From assembly GCA_028289545.1 (NCBI GenBank), contig JANQPG010000030.1, positions 1 to 64,000 on the forward strand: a DNA stretch of 64,000 nt. Direction: 5' to 3'. Of the stretch, positions 7,937 to 17,588 are shown in pieces. The first letter of the stretch is position 1; every line of letters starts with the position of its first letter. The notes beneath the pieces were generated by a model. It saw only the letters and a program-made list of their open reading frames with translations, made no database searches and was not told the origin of the DNA. The stretch comes from Woeseiaceae bacterium (GTDB lineage Bacteria; Pseudomonadota; Gammaproteobacteria; Steroidobacterales; Woeseiaceae). A program made the translations under genes and the position numbers.

Positions 7937-9583
7937 TTGGCAAACAGCATTGAAATCAGCGTTCCCGACCTGGGCGACTTCGCCGATGTCGAGGTTATCG
8001 AGGTTCTGGTAGCGGCCGGCGATACCGTGGCGCGCGAGGACGGACTCGTCACGCTCGAGACCGACAAGGCGGCCATGGACGTTCCGGCGCCAGAGGACGG
8101 AGTCATCGAGGCTCTCGACATTGCCGTGGGCGACAAGGTCAACAGCGGCGACGTCATAGGCCGAATGCAGGTAGCGGAGTCCGACGGGGATTCCGCCGCG
8201 GCGGATGAGCCGGCGGCGCCTGCCGATACGGCGGCACCCGAACCGCAACCGGCCGCCGAAGCGCCGGCTGCTGCGGGCGGCCAGCAAACCCTCGTCGTGC
8301 CGGATCTCGGCGACTTCGAGGACGTCGAGGTCATCGAGGTACACGTTGCCGCCGGCGACGACATTGCGGTGGACGACTCGCTCGTAACGCTCGAGACCGA
8401 CAAAGCCGCAATGGACGTGCCCGCTCTGACGGCTGGCAAGATCGAATCCGTCAGTGTTGCGGTGGGCGACAAGGTGTCCGAAGGGAGCGCACTCGCCGTA
8501 ATCGAGGCAGCCGCAGGTACTCCCGCCGCAGAGCCTGCTGCGACACCCACGGCGCCAGCCGCTGAGAAAACAGCGCCTCCGGCGCCGAGTGCGCCCGAAA
8601 AGCCAGCGGCGCCGAAGCCGGCGGCTGCGGCCGCGTCTGCCACAGGCACGGTCAACGAAGCGGGCTTTGCCCGCGCCCATGCGAGCCCTTCGGTGCGCAA
8701 GCTGGCGCGGGAGCTGGGCGTCGATCTGACCCACGTCAAGGGCAGCGGGCAGAAGTCGCGCATCCTTCACGACGACGTAAAAGCCTACGTCAAGGCTGTG
8801 CTTGAAGGCGGCAAGGCGGCCCCGGCGGCGGCAGGTGGCGGCCTGCCGAAAACACCGGTGGTGGATTTCAGCAAGTTCGGCGAAACCGAACTCGAAGCGC
8901 TGAGCCGTATACAGAAGATCTCGGGGCCGCGGCTCCAGGCCAGCTGGGTGAATCTGCCGCACGTCACCCAGCACGATCTCGCCGACATTACGGATATGGA
9001 AGCGAAGCGCAACGAACTCAAAGGCCCGGCCCGCGAACGCGGAATCCGGCTGACGCCGCTCGCGTTTGTCCTCAAGGCATGCGTTGCGGCGCTCAAGGAG
9101 TTTCCGAAGGTCAACTCATCGCTGGCCGAAGACGGTGAAAACCTCGTCCTTAAAAAGTACTGCCATTTGGGTTTTGCGGCCGATACCGACCAGGGGCTCG
9201 TCGTGCCGGTCATCCGCGACGCCGATCAGAAGGACGTCTACGAGCTTGCCGAGGAGCTGGCTGAGCTCTCGATGCTGGCCCGGGAGGGTAAGCTCAAGGC
9301 GCCGCAGCTGCAGGGCGCGACGTTTACGATCTCGAGCCTCGGCGGCATCGGCGGCACGGCGTTTACGCCGATTGTTAACGCGCCGGAAGTGGCCATCCTG
9401 GGTGTGTCGCGCTCCAGCATGCAGCCCGTGTGGGACGGCGAGAAGTTTGTCCCGCGCCTGATGCTGCCGCTGTCGTTTTCTTATGATCATCGCGTGATCG
9501 ACGGCGCAATGGCCGTGCGCTTTACGACCTACCTGAGTGCAGCGCTCGGCGACGTCGATCAGCTGCTGCAGGCGATCCCGTAA
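7937..9583 (+). CDS. aceF: Dihydrolipoamide acetyltransferase (PDH E2) with two N-terminal lipoyl domains
   Basis: Two lipoyl motifs LETDKAAMDVPA, Ala/Pro linkers, peripheral-subunit-binding domain (ASPSVRKLARELGVDL), catalytic SYDHRVIDGA. Confidence 0.96.
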   Translation: MANSIEISVPDLGDFADVEVIEVLVAAGDTVAREDGLVTLETDKAAMDVPAPEDGVIEALDIAVGDKVNSGDVIGRMQVAESDGDSAAADEPAAPADTAAPEPQPAAEAPAAAGGQQTLVVPDLGDFEDVEVIEVHVAAGDDIAVDDSLVTLETDKAAMDVPALTAGKIESVSVAVGDKVSEGSALAVIEAAAGTPAAEPAATPTAPAAEKTAPPAPSAPEKPAAPKPAAAAASATGTVNEAGFARAHASPSVRKLARELGVDLTHVKGSGQKSRILHDDVKAYVKAVLEGGKAAPAAAGGGLPKTPVVDFSKFGETELEALSRIQKISGPRLQASWVNLPHVTQHDLADITDMEAKRNELKGPARERGIRLTPLAFVLKACVAALKEFPKVNSSLAEDGENLVLKKYCHLGFAADTDQGLVVPVIRDADQKDVYELAEELAELSMLAREGKLKAPQLQGATFTISSLGGIGGTAFTPIVNAPEVAILGVSRSSMQPVWDGEKFVPRLMLPLSFSYDHRVIDGAMAVRFTTYLSAALGDVDQLLQAIP

Positions 9584-12604: not shown

Positions 12605-14113
12605 TCATGCGGCGAGGTCTTCGGGCGTGGGGTCCGGATACAGTTCGTTCAGCGGTATCGAGCGGCCGTCGTCCTGCACGATGCGGCAGTGGTAGCGTCG
12701 CAGCTGGCGGGGCTCAGACACGCCGCAAGAATGCGCAATGATGCCGATCTCCTTGAGCATCGTCTGCGTGTAGCGCGCGACACGCTCCGCCTTGTCGGCG
12801 GGTACGAGGCCGCGCTGCAAACGCCTGTCGTGGGTCGTGACGCCGGTGGGACACGTATTCTTGTTGCACTGCAGGGCCTGGATGCACCCCAGCGCCAGCA
12901 TGTAGCCGCGCGCCGAGTTGACAAAATCGGCGCCGACGCACAGCGCCCATGCCGCATCGGCGGGGTTGATGAGTTTGCCGCTCGAAATGACCCGGATGCG
13001 TTCTTTCAGGCCGTGGCGCTTCAGTATGTCGACTACGAGGGGCAGGCTCTCCTTGATCGGCAGCCCTACGTTATCCATGAGGCTCATTGGGGCCGCGCCC
13101 GTACCGCCGTCTCCGCTGTCCACGGTAATGAAGTCGGGCGCACTCTCGATGCCGCGCTTTTTGATCTCCTCGCAGAGTTCGTCGAGCCAGCCGTAAGCGC
13201 CAATGACGGATTTGAAGCCAACCGGCTTGCCCGTGACTTCGCGGATATGCGCAATCATGTCGAGCAGGTCGTCGGCCGAGTCGATGTCGGGGTGCCGGTT
13301 CGGGCTGATCGAGTCCTCGCCCTCACGTATGCCGCGGATTTTTGCAATCTCCGCGGTCACTTTTTCGCCGGGGAGTATGCCGCCTTTACCCGGCTTGGCG
13401 CCCTGGCTGAGCTTGAGTTCGAACATACGCACCTGTTCGGTGTCGCCGAGTTCGCTGAGCTTTGCGTCGCTGAGCGAACCGTCTTCGTCGCGGACACCGT
13501 ACTTGGCCGTGCCGATCTGGAACACAATGTCGCAACCGCCTTCGAGGTGCCACGGCGACAGACCGCCTTCGCCCGTGTTAAGCCAGTTGCCCGCTATGGC
13601 GGAGCCGCGCGACAGCGCCTGCACCGCCGGCTTCGACAGCGCGCCGAAGCTCATGGCCGAGACGTTGAAGAGCGATTTGGCCTCGAAAGGCTTACGCGCG
13701 TAGGGGCCGATCTCGAGCGGTGCCGTGGCCGCTACGTCCTGCTCGAGTTTCGGGTACGGGCAGTTGACGAAAATGCGTGTGCCGGGCGGCGTAAGGCTGA
13801 GCGACGAGCCGAACGCCACGGTGTTGTCCACGCCTTTTGCCGCACGGTACACCCAGGAGCGCTGCGCGCGGTTGAAGGGCATTTCTTCGCGGTCGTTGGC
13901 AAAGAAATACTGGCGGAAGAACTCGCCCAGGTGCTCGAACCAGTAGCGGAAGCGGCCGATAACGGGAAAGTTGCGGCGGATCGCATGCTTCGTCTGGGTG
14001 ATGTCAATAATGTAGATGACGATGACGGCCAGCAGTCCCAGTCCGATGAGGAAGACCAGGATGGATGACAGTATCTGCAGAATGCCGATAGCATCGAAGA
14101 ACGATTCGCGCAT
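12605..14113 (-). CDS. Membrane-anchored FMN-binding glutamate synthase-family protein
   Basis: N-terminal TM segment, then KLSQGAKPGKGGILPGEKVTAEIAKIRGI, ITVDSGDGGTGAAPMSLMDNVGLP, CNKNTCPTGVTTHD. Confidence 0.9.
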   Translation of the reverse strand: MRESFFDAIGILQILSSILVFLIGLGLLAVIVIYIIDITQTKHAIRRNFPVIGRFRYWFEHLGEFFRQYFFANDREEMPFNRAQRSWVYRAAKGVDNTVAFGSSLSLTPPGTRIFVNCPYPKLEQDVAATAPLEIGPYARKPFEAKSLFNVSAMSFGALSKPAVQALSRGSAIAGNWLNTGEGGLSPWHLEGGCDIVFQIGTAKYGVRDEDGSLSDAKLSELGDTEQVRMFELKLSQGAKPGKGGILPGEKVTAEIAKIRGIREGEDSISPNRHPDIDSADDLLDMIAHIREVTGKPVGFKSVIGAYGWLDELCEEIKKRGIESAPDFITVDSGDGGTGAAPMSLMDNVGLPIKESLPLVVDILKRHGLKERIRVISSGKLINPADAAWALCVGADFVNSARGYMLALGCIQALQCNKNTCPTGVTTHDRRLQRGLVPADKAERVARYTQTMLKEIGIIAHSCGVSEPRQLRRYHCRIVQDDGRSIPLNELYPDPTPEDLAA

Positions 14114-14199: not shown

Positions 14200-14227
14200 G
14201 GGACGCCGCGCCGGAATGCGGCGTCCC
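14200..14227 (-). terminator. Strong hairpin downstream of DoxX gene
   Basis: Perfect 10-bp stem GGGACGCCGC (14200-14209) / GCGGCGTCCC (14218-14227), 8-nt loop, between the DoxX stop and the next start. Confidence 0.6.
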
Positions 14228-14241
14228 CTAAACATTGTCGC

Positions 14242-14757
14242 TCAGCTTTTGAAGACGTGCTTGCGCAGCAGGTTATCGAGGCTCAGTTTGCCCGGGCCGA
14301 TGAAGATCAGCGGCAGCAGCATGGCGACGAACAGCAGCGGTATGCGGTAGTTGCCGAAACCGTTGTTGGTGACGCTGTAGCCCTGCCAGAGTTCGGCCAG
14401 CGTGTTCCACTCGTCGGGCCAGTGGACGCCGAAGATGGCCACGATGCTGACAATCAAAAGGCTGAATGCCCAGAAGCGCGTAAACAGTCCGAGGATGAGG
14501 GCCAGTGCTCCCAGAAGTTCGGCGTAAGTCACCAGGTACCAGTTGAGTCCGGCCGGCAGCACGTTGAACGGAAACGGGAAATCGCCCTGCGTGTTGACAA
14601 ACCATTGCGGCACGCCGCCTTCCACCGAAGCCTTGCGGAGGCCGGCGCTGCCGAATTCGTAGGCGAGAAGCACGCGGATGAGCAGCAGGCCAACCCAGTG
14701 ACCGGCACCGTCAAGTTTGCCGCGAATGTTATTGAGTAAAGGGATGATGCTGTTCAT
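14242..14757 (-). CDS. DoxX family membrane protein
   Basis: LLIRVLLAYEFGSAGLRKA, NWYLVTYAELLGALALILGLFTRFWAFSLLIVSIVAI. Confidence 0.88.
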   Translation of the reverse strand: MNSIIPLLNNIRGKLDGAGHWVGLLLIRVLLAYEFGSAGLRKASVEGGVPQWFVNTQGDFPFPFNVLPAGLNWYLVTYAELLGALALILGLFTRFWAFSLLIVSIVAIFGVHWPDEWNTLAELWQGYSVTNNGFGNYRIPLLFVAMLLPLIFIGPGKLSLDNLLRKHVFKS

Positions 14758-14780
14758 CGGAGCTGCTCCGTCGGTTGTTG

Positions 14781-15557
14781 TTAGCGTGTCTGCACTCGTG
14801 TGCCGATGAGAATATTGAGGTCGCGCATTTGCTGCATAGCCGTATGGCCGTGCGCCACGAGGTTATCGATATCCGGGTAGCCCGTTCGCTCGCCGAGCTC
14901 ACGAAGCAGGTTTTCCCCGGTCTTGTTGTCCGTGTTGTTGTCGATGGCATCGAGCAGACCGGCCGTCAGCGGATTCAGCTCCATGAAACCGAGTTTCTGC
15001 TCCGCGTTGCGGTACACGGCCAGGTAGATGGGCTGTTCTGCCGGCGCGTCGGGCAGGAAGTCCTTGTTGATCTGGTGCACCGGGTAGTGATACGCAAACG
15101 CCCATGCATGCACCGACTTGGCCGGTACTCCCGAGAGCAAATGCCCGTCGGGATCGATGCCGTCCAGTATGTCTTCCTCGACCGATGTGTTGAGCGCCAG
15201 CTCGATGTATTCGTAGTGCGCCAGTTCGTTGAGAAACGGGAAGTCGTCCTCTTCGCGTTCGTATTCGTGCTCGAGAAAGGACAACATTTCTTCGGGCAGT
15301 TTCAGGAAGTACGGCGTCTCGGCGCGGTGCTTCTGCATGAATTGCCGAATCAGCCGGCGCCACTTGCGATCACCCATGAGCTCGGACAACACCGGGAACG
15401 TCGTCGACAAGAGGCTTCTGAGGTTGTTGAAGAACAACTCACGGTAGACCGCCATGCGCCGGTCTTCTATACCCTCGGGAGCCGGCACGTTTTCCGGATC
15501 GCGTATGTGCGCGGCGAACGCGAACTGCTTTTCCTGGAAATCGGAGCGCTCAGCCAT
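14781..15557 (-). CDS. HvfC/BufC family protein (DUF2063-type MNIO partner)
   Basis: Start MAERSDFQEKQFAFAAHIRDPENVPAPEGIEDRRMAVYRELFFNNLRSLLSTTFPVLSELMGD; overlaps the upstream MNIO gene by 8 bp. Confidence 0.85.
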   Translation of the reverse strand: MAERSDFQEKQFAFAAHIRDPENVPAPEGIEDRRMAVYRELFFNNLRSLLSTTFPVLSELMGDRKWRRLIRQFMQKHRAETPYFLKLPEEMLSFLEHEYEREEDDFPFLNELAHYEYIELALNTSVEEDILDGIDPDGHLLSGVPAKSVHAWAFAYHYPVHQINKDFLPDAPAEQPIYLAVYRNAEQKLGFMELNPLTAGLLDAIDNNTDNKTGENLLRELGERTGYPDIDNLVAHGHTAMQQMRDLNILIGTRVQTR

Positions 15558-16404
15558 TGCCCACTTCCTTGAGCGTCGTTTCCTGCTGCAGGCGCTTGAT
15601 CTTCCGGACTTCCTCCAGCAACTCCTCGATCGGCGGGAAGTTGAAGTCGCGCTCGAGCAGTGTCGGGACCGGGCCAAAGTGCAGATACGCTTCGCGCAGG
15701 AGCTGCCAGCTCTGTTCGTCGACGGCGTCACCATGGGTGTCGATGCGCAGATCTTCCGCCTCGACGTAGTGACCCGCCAGGTGGAAATAGCGAATGCGCT
15801 CGGCAGGCATGCTGCGGAGGAACTCGCTGGCGTCGTAGCTGTGGTTGATGCTGTTGACGACAATATTGTTGATGTCGAGCATCAGGTCGCAATCGGATTC
15901 TTCGAGCACGGCGTTGACGAAGTCGGCCTCCGGCATGCTGGCGTCCGTAGGCGCATAAAAGGAGACGTTCTCCAGCGCAATGCGTTGTTCGAGGATGTCC
16001 TGGACGCGCCGCACCCGCGCCGCGACCCAGCTGACGGCCTCTTCCGTAAACGGGATGGGCATCAGGTCGTACAGCTGGCCGTCGTCGCTCGTGTAGCTCA
16101 GGTGTTCCGAGTACATCAGGATGCCGTGCTCTTTCATGAAGTCCTTGATGTCGTGGACCAGCGCTTCGTTGAGCGGAGCGGGTGAGCCTATGGACAAGGA
16201 CAGGCCGTGAATGAGAAACGGATAGCGTTCGGTAAAAAACCGAAACTTGCGGCCCAGCACGCCGCCGACCTTGATCCAGTTTTCCGGCGCCACTTCCATG
16301 AAGTCCACCTCCGACGGCGGGTTCTCCATCAGGGTATTCAGTAGCGCGCGGCGCAGTCCGAGACCGGCGCCGGATACGGGATAAGCTGTCGTATTGGTAT
16401 TCAT
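15550..16404 (-). CDS. MNIO family (DUF692) multinuclear non-heme iron oxygenase, HvfB/BufB-like
   Basis: GAGLGLRRAL, FLIHGLSLSIGSPAPLN, YSEHLSYT, LMLDINNIVVNSINH, RYFHLAGHY, PTLLERDFNFPP. Confidence 0.92.
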   Translation of the reverse strand: MNTNTTAYPVSGAGLGLRRALLNTLMENPPSEVDFMEVAPENWIKVGGVLGRKFRFFTERYPFLIHGLSLSIGSPAPLNEALVHDIKDFMKEHGILMYSEHLSYTSDDGQLYDLMPIPFTEEAVSWVAARVRRVQDILEQRIALENVSFYAPTDASMPEADFVNAVLEESDCDLMLDINNIVVNSINHSYDASEFLRSMPAERIRYFHLAGHYVEAEDLRIDTHGDAVDEQSWQLLREAYLHFGPVPTLLERDFNFPPIEELLEEVRKIKRLQQETTLKEVGNG

Positions 16405-16536
16405 TCAGCGTCCACCTTTCGGTTATCGGATAAGACCAGCGACCCCCGGACTTTATTACATTCTCCGTGGTGGCTTAAGCGGGAACGCATCGGTTGGGCG
16501 CTGCGGGCCAGGCGTCATGCGGCGCCACCGTACTGT

Positions 16537-16956
16537 CTACAGCCTGTTGAGGCGCTCCAGATAGCGGGCTTCGTCGGGCATGGCGTTGGCGCTCTGCGCT
16601 TCCCAAAGCGTCTCCGCAAGGCACTCGATCATGCGATGCTCGATGTCGTGCGGATCGCCTCCGCGCAGACTGAGCTGCCGCCAGATCGCGCCAATACCCG
16701 CCGGTCGGTCGGTCGCAATCTGCTCGCGAAGGCCAAGATGCAGGCCCATGTGCAGGTAGGGATTGCTCTGCCCGGCTTCGGGCGGAAAATCCGCGTCGAC
16801 GTCGCCGGACGTGATTGTCGACCAGTATTCGGGGTGCAGCTTGACGACGTCCGCGATTTGCTGCTCCAGGGCGCTGAGCGGCAGACCGTCCTCGTGTTTT
16901 CGCCACGCGTCGCTGTACATCCGGCGAAGCTCGGCGCGATCCTGTCCAAAGATCAT
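16537..16956 (-). CDS. DUF1841 family protein
   Basis: Start MIFGQDRAELRRMYSDAWRKHEDGLPLSALEQQIADVVKLHPEYW...NPYLHMGLHLGLREQ, typical neighbour of nth. Confidence 0.88.
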   Translation of the reverse strand: MIFGQDRAELRRMYSDAWRKHEDGLPLSALEQQIADVVKLHPEYWSTITSGDVDADFPPEAGQSNPYLHMGLHLGLREQIATDRPAGIGAIWRQLSLRGGDPHDIEHRMIECLAETLWEAQSANAMPDEARYLERLNRL

Positions 16957-17588
16957 GTGAATTCCTTTGCACGGTATTCGCACCATGGTTCGATGATGCA
17001 GTCGCCGCAAGCCGGCTTGCGGGCTTTGCAGGTGTAGCGTCCGTGCAGGATCAGCCAGTGGTGAGCGTCTTTCAGGAATTCATCGGGTATCAGGCGCACG
17101 AGGCTTTTCTCCACCGCGAGCGGCGTCTTGCCCTTTGCGATTCCGGTTCGGTTCGATACACGGAAGATGTGCGTGTCGACGGCCATTGTCGGCTCGCCGA
17201 AGGCGGTATTGAGCACAACGTTGGCCGTCTTGCGGCCAACACCCGGCAAAGCCTCCAGCGCCTCCCTTGTCCGCGGGACCTGGCTTTCATGCTGTTCGAT
17301 CAGTATGGCGCAGGTTTTGATGATGTTTTCCGCTTTGCTGTTGTAGAGCCCGATTGTCTTGATATAGCGCTTGAGCCCTTCGACGCCGAGGGCGTGGATT
17401 GCTTCCGGCGTATTGGCGACGGGATACAGTTTGCGGGTTGCCTTGTTAACGCCGACGTCCGTTGCCTGCGCGGAGAGTATTACCGCAATCAGAAGCTCGA
17501 ACGGCGTGTCGTATTCGAGTTCCGTCGTGGGCTCGGGGTTCGCGTGGCGCAGCGCGCTGAAAATGGCAGTACGTTTTTCCCTGTTCAT
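16953..17588 (-). CDS. nth: Endonuclease III
   Basis: LPGVGRKTANVVLNTAFG HhH motif, C-terminal 4Fe-4S cysteines CKARKPACGDCIIEPWC. Confidence 0.96.
   Translation of the reverse strand: MNREKRTAIFSALRHANPEPTTELEYDTPFELLIAVILSAQATDVGVNKATRKLYPVANTPEAIHALGVEGLKRYIKTIGLYNSKAENIIKTCAILIEQHESQVPRTREALEALPGVGRKTANVVLNTAFGEPTMAVDTHIFRVSNRTGIAKGKTPLAVEKSLVRLIPDEFLKDAHHWLILHGRYTCKARKPACGDCIIEPWCEYRAKEFT

Follow-up and report, generated by a model that had tools for sequence, protein, structure and literature searches.

A Woeseiaceae MNIO-HvfC-DoxX operon and a distant HvfA-type precursor gene share a promoter-like dyad

The captophorins oxazolin, gonophorin and fontiphorin come from the hvf, ngo and fon clusters of Haemophilus influenzae, Neisseria and Fontimonas, respectively (PMC13097082), and in H. 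influenzae and N. meningitidis the hvf/DoxX cluster is already known to be controlled by an ECF sigma factor (PMC7907618). We analyzed a window of 64,000 nucleotides (the whole stretch, positions 1 to 64,000 of contig JANQPG010000030.1) from the genome of a Woeseiaceae bacterium (GCA_028289545.1). The system found here resembles the hvf, ngo and fon clusters in its HvfB-type MNIO, PME1 partner, DoxX protein and Sec-exported repeat precursor, and the Haemophilus and Neisseria clusters in its ECF sigma control, predicted here from sequence. It differs from the hvf, ngo and fon clusters in that the precursor is encoded at a separate locus inside a sigma operon and has a mostly EGSCG core, and in that the presumed anti-sigma factor is a DUF3379 protein instead of the small ZAS type. 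The BufA1 (DUF2282) bufferin operons likewise have sigma and anti-sigma (NrsF) genes beside the metallophore precursor, but they have another precursor family, another anti-sigma factor and their enzymes in the same cluster (PMC12452194). Precursors of the bufferin and EGKCG types that stand alone, with no MNIO gene nearby, have already been reported (PMC12452194); that survey could not assign a modifying MNIO to them, if there is one, whereas the pair described here is linked by a shared promoter-like dyad, co-occurrence and synteny.

The genes lie on the minus strand of the window in the order nth, DUF1841, MNIO, HvfC, DoxX, hairpin and glutamate-synthase-domain protein. The MNIO gene (15550 to 16404; PF05114/DUF692) encodes an HvfB-type RiPP maturase of 284 aa; its reading frame is intact, and it scored 419 bits with the NCBIfam HvfB model NF003818 (cut-off 360) and 257.5 bits with the BufB model, under the cut-off of 310. 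The HvfC gene (14781 to 15557), overlapping the MNIO stop by 8 nt, encodes a PME type 1 partner with DUF2063 and NGO1945_C domains (PF09836 and PF22106), which is a homologue of 3DEE and scored 279.7 bits with NF050145 (cut-off 142). After a gap of 23 bp follows a DoxX-family membrane protein of the HvfX type (14242 to 14757; PF07681), with 137.5 bits for NF050144 against a cut-off of 80. These scores bear out the intact MNIO, overlapping HvfC and DoxX of a first-pass annotation made from the letters of the window, all of whose coordinates were correct. The strong hairpin by which it had the cluster closed is also real (14200 to 14227, minus strand; a 10-bp GC stem; −34.7 kcal/mol for the stretch, z −4.5), but it is followed by no T run and thus is not a canonical intrinsic terminator. 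Both flanks are conserved: upstream lie DUF1841 (16537 to 16956, minus strand; PF08897 and synteny, start set at the methionine of MIFGQD) and an nth-like endonuclease III (16953 to 17588, minus strand; named by sequence and synteny), and past the hairpin lies the glutamate-synthase-domain protein (12605 to 14113, minus strand; PF01645 and synteny). The latter has an N-terminal membrane segment and adjoins the hvfBCX genes in many lineages. The 132-bp gap between DUF1841 and MNIO (16405 to 16536) contains a promoter-like dyad overlooked in the first-pass annotation, GTAATAAAGTCCGGGGGTCGCTGGTCT (16433 to 16459, minus strand), which is predicted to serve the MNIO operon as an ECF sigma promoter.

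The MNIO is homologous to 3BWW (E 4e-72) and is 70 to 85% identical across the family. Among 79 aligned homologues, the iron-site candidates H66, H101, E145, D177, N179, H208, D222, H224 and E251 were invariant, as were the proposed catalytic base D253 and the substrate-contact positions R19 and F254; R18 was kept in 78. The roles given to these residues follow published work (PMC13097082) and, in part, what is known of MbnB. In FonB, the equivalents of R18/R19 and F254 are features tied to the Lys-Cys substrate class (PMC13097082).

No precursor gene was found at the locus, in agreement with the first-pass annotation: six-frame ORFs including GTG and TTG starts, with both gaps covered, contained no Cys-rich open reading frame with a signal peptide, which rules out a precursor missed there. 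Exactly one MNIO is encoded in the genome of the window, and searches of this genome returned no DUF2282 (BufA1-type) precursor, no BufA2 precursor and no exact EGKCG core. Membership in a BufA1 or BufA2 bufferin operon was ruled out, since neither precursor is present and the MNIO falls under the BufB cut-off; BufA2 occurs only in those family genomes having a second, distinct MNIO. DNA coding for EGKCGEGKCG was found in 11 genomes of the family, on other contigs or megabases away from the MNIO gene, and these matches revealed Woeseiaceae HvfA proteins with mostly EGSCG units, which were used as a profile. The profile matched 86 of 107 family genomes, among them that of the window, where it identified a single HvfA-like gene (E 8e-28) on another contig (C5:36597-36980, minus strand). 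Searches for DUF2282 and exact EGKCG alone would have led to a wrong orphan label.

The encoded precursor has 127 aa, a signal peptide (judged by eye) and nine repeats, all of them Ser-Cys units, with EGSCG in place of the usual EGKCG. It scored 39.5 bits with the HvfA family repeat-domain model NF050137 (cut-off 19.5) and fell below the stricter HvfA equivalog model NF050188 (43 vs 95 bits). Ser preceded the Cys in 280 of 371 cases among 42 precursors of the family. FonBC accepts A, R or T in place of Lys, making Ser plausible there; EGSCG is absent from the core variants tested as substrates (PMC13097082), and we found no published account of it in the open literature. At one further locus (L236), an HvfA-like protein has an EF-hand-like stretch between two EGKCGEGKCGG blocks. 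With one MNIO and one HvfA-family precursor in the genome, the distant precursor suggested by the first-pass annotation is corroborated and its "orphan" cassette is not; its other proposal, a non-canonical substrate, gives way to the usual HvfBC substrate class with Ser for Lys before Cys. In nearly complete relatives, more than 1 Mb separates the two loci, the distance being 2.1 Mb in G011 and about 1.7 Mb in G105 (the shorter arc, assuming a circular contig).

We searched 107 genomes of the family Woeseiaceae, 87 of which encode an MNIO; public loci bear the names Woeseiaceae and Woeseia. Both MNIO and HvfA were present in 83, neither in 17, MNIO only in 4 and HvfA only in 3 (Fisher p 3e-13, which is only indicative because related species are not independent). 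Six of the seven genomes with one partner are 62 to 86% complete; the seventh (G063) is rated 100% complete and is in about 470 contigs. The order nth-DUF1841-MNIO-HvfC was kept in almost all Woeseiaceae loci with enough flank, and a Cys-repeat precursor was present at none of the Woeseiaceae loci examined. A strongly divergent DoxX (28 to 33% identity) occupies the same position in one subgroup of the family (L020, L026, L029-L033, L035, L039 and L040).

Comparison of homologous loci for a moved precursor, a test set beforehand, showed the precursor to lie away from the MNIO locus throughout the family, and likewise in some lineages related to it. In less close gammaproteobacterial loci (L042-L081), hvfA lies mostly 6 to 30 bp upstream of hvfB and encodes a signal peptide, an NPFAM.ELSSGYM segment and EGKCG repeats; this local hvfA of the sister lineages sits at the same nth-DUF1841 chromosomal site as hvfBCX of Woeseiaceae. 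Two sister genomes without a local hvfA (G110 and G111) have the order sigma-DUF3379-hvfA-tag elsewhere, and a third (G108) has a non-local hvfA without sigma, DUF3379 or tag neighbours. In the MNIO tree, Woeseiaceae with their split forms make up one group, and four further split forms fall between this group and the local forms. A gammaproteobacterial hvfABCX locus was also found on one contig labelled as a Halobacteria archaeon (L045), which has probably been misbinned. A true orphan cassette, in which the substrate of HvfBC is something other than the distant EGSCG peptide, either unrelated to it or not a peptide at all, would agree with the missing local precursor and with a core unlike EGKCG. 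However, the co-occurrence of MNIO and HvfA, the common dyad, the leader homology and the presence of the same precursor type beside hvfB in sister lineages make such a cassette highly improbable. Our pairing of the MNIO with the distant HvfA precursor is based on co-occurrence, the shared dyad and synteny.

In the genome of the window, hvfA is preceded by an ECF sigma factor gene and then a DUF3379 gene. The usual surroundings are a divergent hemB and a downstream tag; here, a di-haem oxidoreductase gene separates hvfA from tag, and a hairpin with a T run, resembling an intrinsic terminator by eye, lies 3' of hvfA. DUF3379 was detected in 87 of the 107 family genomes, and most matches lie directly before hvfA. 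From its gene position and a weak anti-sigma match, the DUF3379 protein is presumed to be the anti-sigma factor of the ECF sigma factor; we found no paper in the open literature joining DUF3379 to a sigma factor. Contamination is an unlikely origin for contig C5, as the sigma-DUF3379-hvfA order and the dyad recur throughout the family.

The upstream regions of Woeseiaceae MNIO genes (55/55) and of sigma-DUF3379-hvfA operons (29/29) all contained the dyad GTAATA-N16-GGTC with the same spacing, and it never appeared when these regions were shuffled in 100 rounds. The copy before the sigma operon in the genome of the window (C5:38343-38369, minus strand) is the same dyad as that at 16433 to 16459. 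With a stricter pattern (exact dyads), this genome contains five: those of the MNIO and sigma-hvfA operons and only three others (L191, L194 and L195; C3:16880-16906, C91:132434-132460 and C101:41887-41913), which precede a TlpA-like thioredoxin with DUF1223, an exported AhpC/TSA peroxiredoxin, and DsbC. The position of these dyads suggests an envelope thiol-stress regulon. Across 73 congeneric genomes, 231 dyads were counted against 35 for the reversed control pattern (3.2 vs about 0.5 per genome), and in nine genomes of the genus g10, without MNIO, HvfA or DUF3379, there was no excess (3 vs 15 for the control). The exported peroxiredoxin is preceded by the dyad in 12 genomes including that of the window (mostly by eye), and dyads of relatives also precede TlpA-like proteins, DUF3179, a YHS-domain protein and DoxX; some others stand before unrelated genes and probably arose by chance. 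In G011, a dyad (C1:213440-213466; L196) precedes a BufA2 bufferin precursor adjoining a second, distinct MNIO; a single sigma factor may thus govern both kinds of metallophore. The dyad as a general trait of clusters with a local hvfA was rejected, as 0 of 33 sister loci with hvfA have it.

The dyad is probably the ECF sigma promoter that switches on both operons. In 28 of 29 genomes, the −10-like GGTC ends 7 nt before the start codon of the sigma operon (for example, L161, ~8337-8370, minus strand), implying a nearly leaderless message. This short distance, together with a GGTC unlike the textbook ECF element, would suit a split pathway whose two halves are joined not by the ECF sigma factor but by a different regulator, with the dyad as its operator or promoter. 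Such an arrangement is unlikely, though, given that the spacing is fixed, that the dyad stands before the sigma gene itself, that ECF sigma factors are usually autoregulated, and that genomes without DUF3379 have no dyad excess. The separate loci and the Lys-to-Ser change in the core could also be read in another way, in which the Cys-rich product of the distant hvfA serves unmodified as a thiol buffer in the periplasm, and the HvfBC operon is a remnant in decay. This reading has very little chance of being right, in view of an MNIO whose active-site residues are all invariant and which is so well conserved in the family, a promoter-like dyad retained at every one of the 55 MNIO genes and an MNIO-hvfA pair nearly always kept together.

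We therefore consider it very likely that the locus provides the maturation functions of an HvfA-type pathway for a captophorin (a copper-binding thiooxazole peptide), with hvfA in a distant ECF sigma operon and both operons fired by one promoter. The action of HvfBC on the distant peptide, its chemistry and metal binding, the sigma specificity and the inducing signal are what we infer. Leader binding, Cys conversion and buffering are modelled on work with FonABC, HvfABC and NgoABC (PMC13097082): HvfC would recognize the conserved leader (NPF/SPF..L..GYM) of the exported precursor, and HvfB would oxidize the Cys residues of the EG(S/K)CG repeats, with 5-thiooxazole as the probable product. The modified peptide would reach the periplasm via Sec and buffer copper or other soft metals (or thiols), and HvfX/DoxX may help at the membrane. 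Under thiol or metal stress in the envelope, the sigma factor would be released and could then activate both operons and the periplasmic thiol redox genes from GTAATA-N16-GGTC.

Compared with the open literature, the following appear to be new: two distant loci paired via a predicted sigma promoter that they share, an operon of the order sigma-DUF3379-hvfA, and a core with Ser before Cys. For many MNIO gene sets and solitary Cys-rich precursors no partner has been assigned, and a shared regulatory element combined with co-occurrence can pair them; this case supplies a concrete candidate enzyme-substrate pair, in a group from marine sediments, and a natural EGSCG substrate series for the study of MNIO specificity. 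Thiooxazole metallophores would thereby be tied to an envelope thiol-redox regulon. More tentatively, and with somewhat less than an even chance, a sigma regulon may hold together a RiPP pathway that is scattered along the chromosome, with the precursor in the sigma operon, the enzymes far from it and the same promoter before the periplasmic peroxiredoxin, thioredoxin and DsbC genes. The thiooxazole peptide would then act as one of the effectors in a general response to envelope thiol stress, and precursors with the EGSCG core would form a subclass distinct in chemistry or metal preference.
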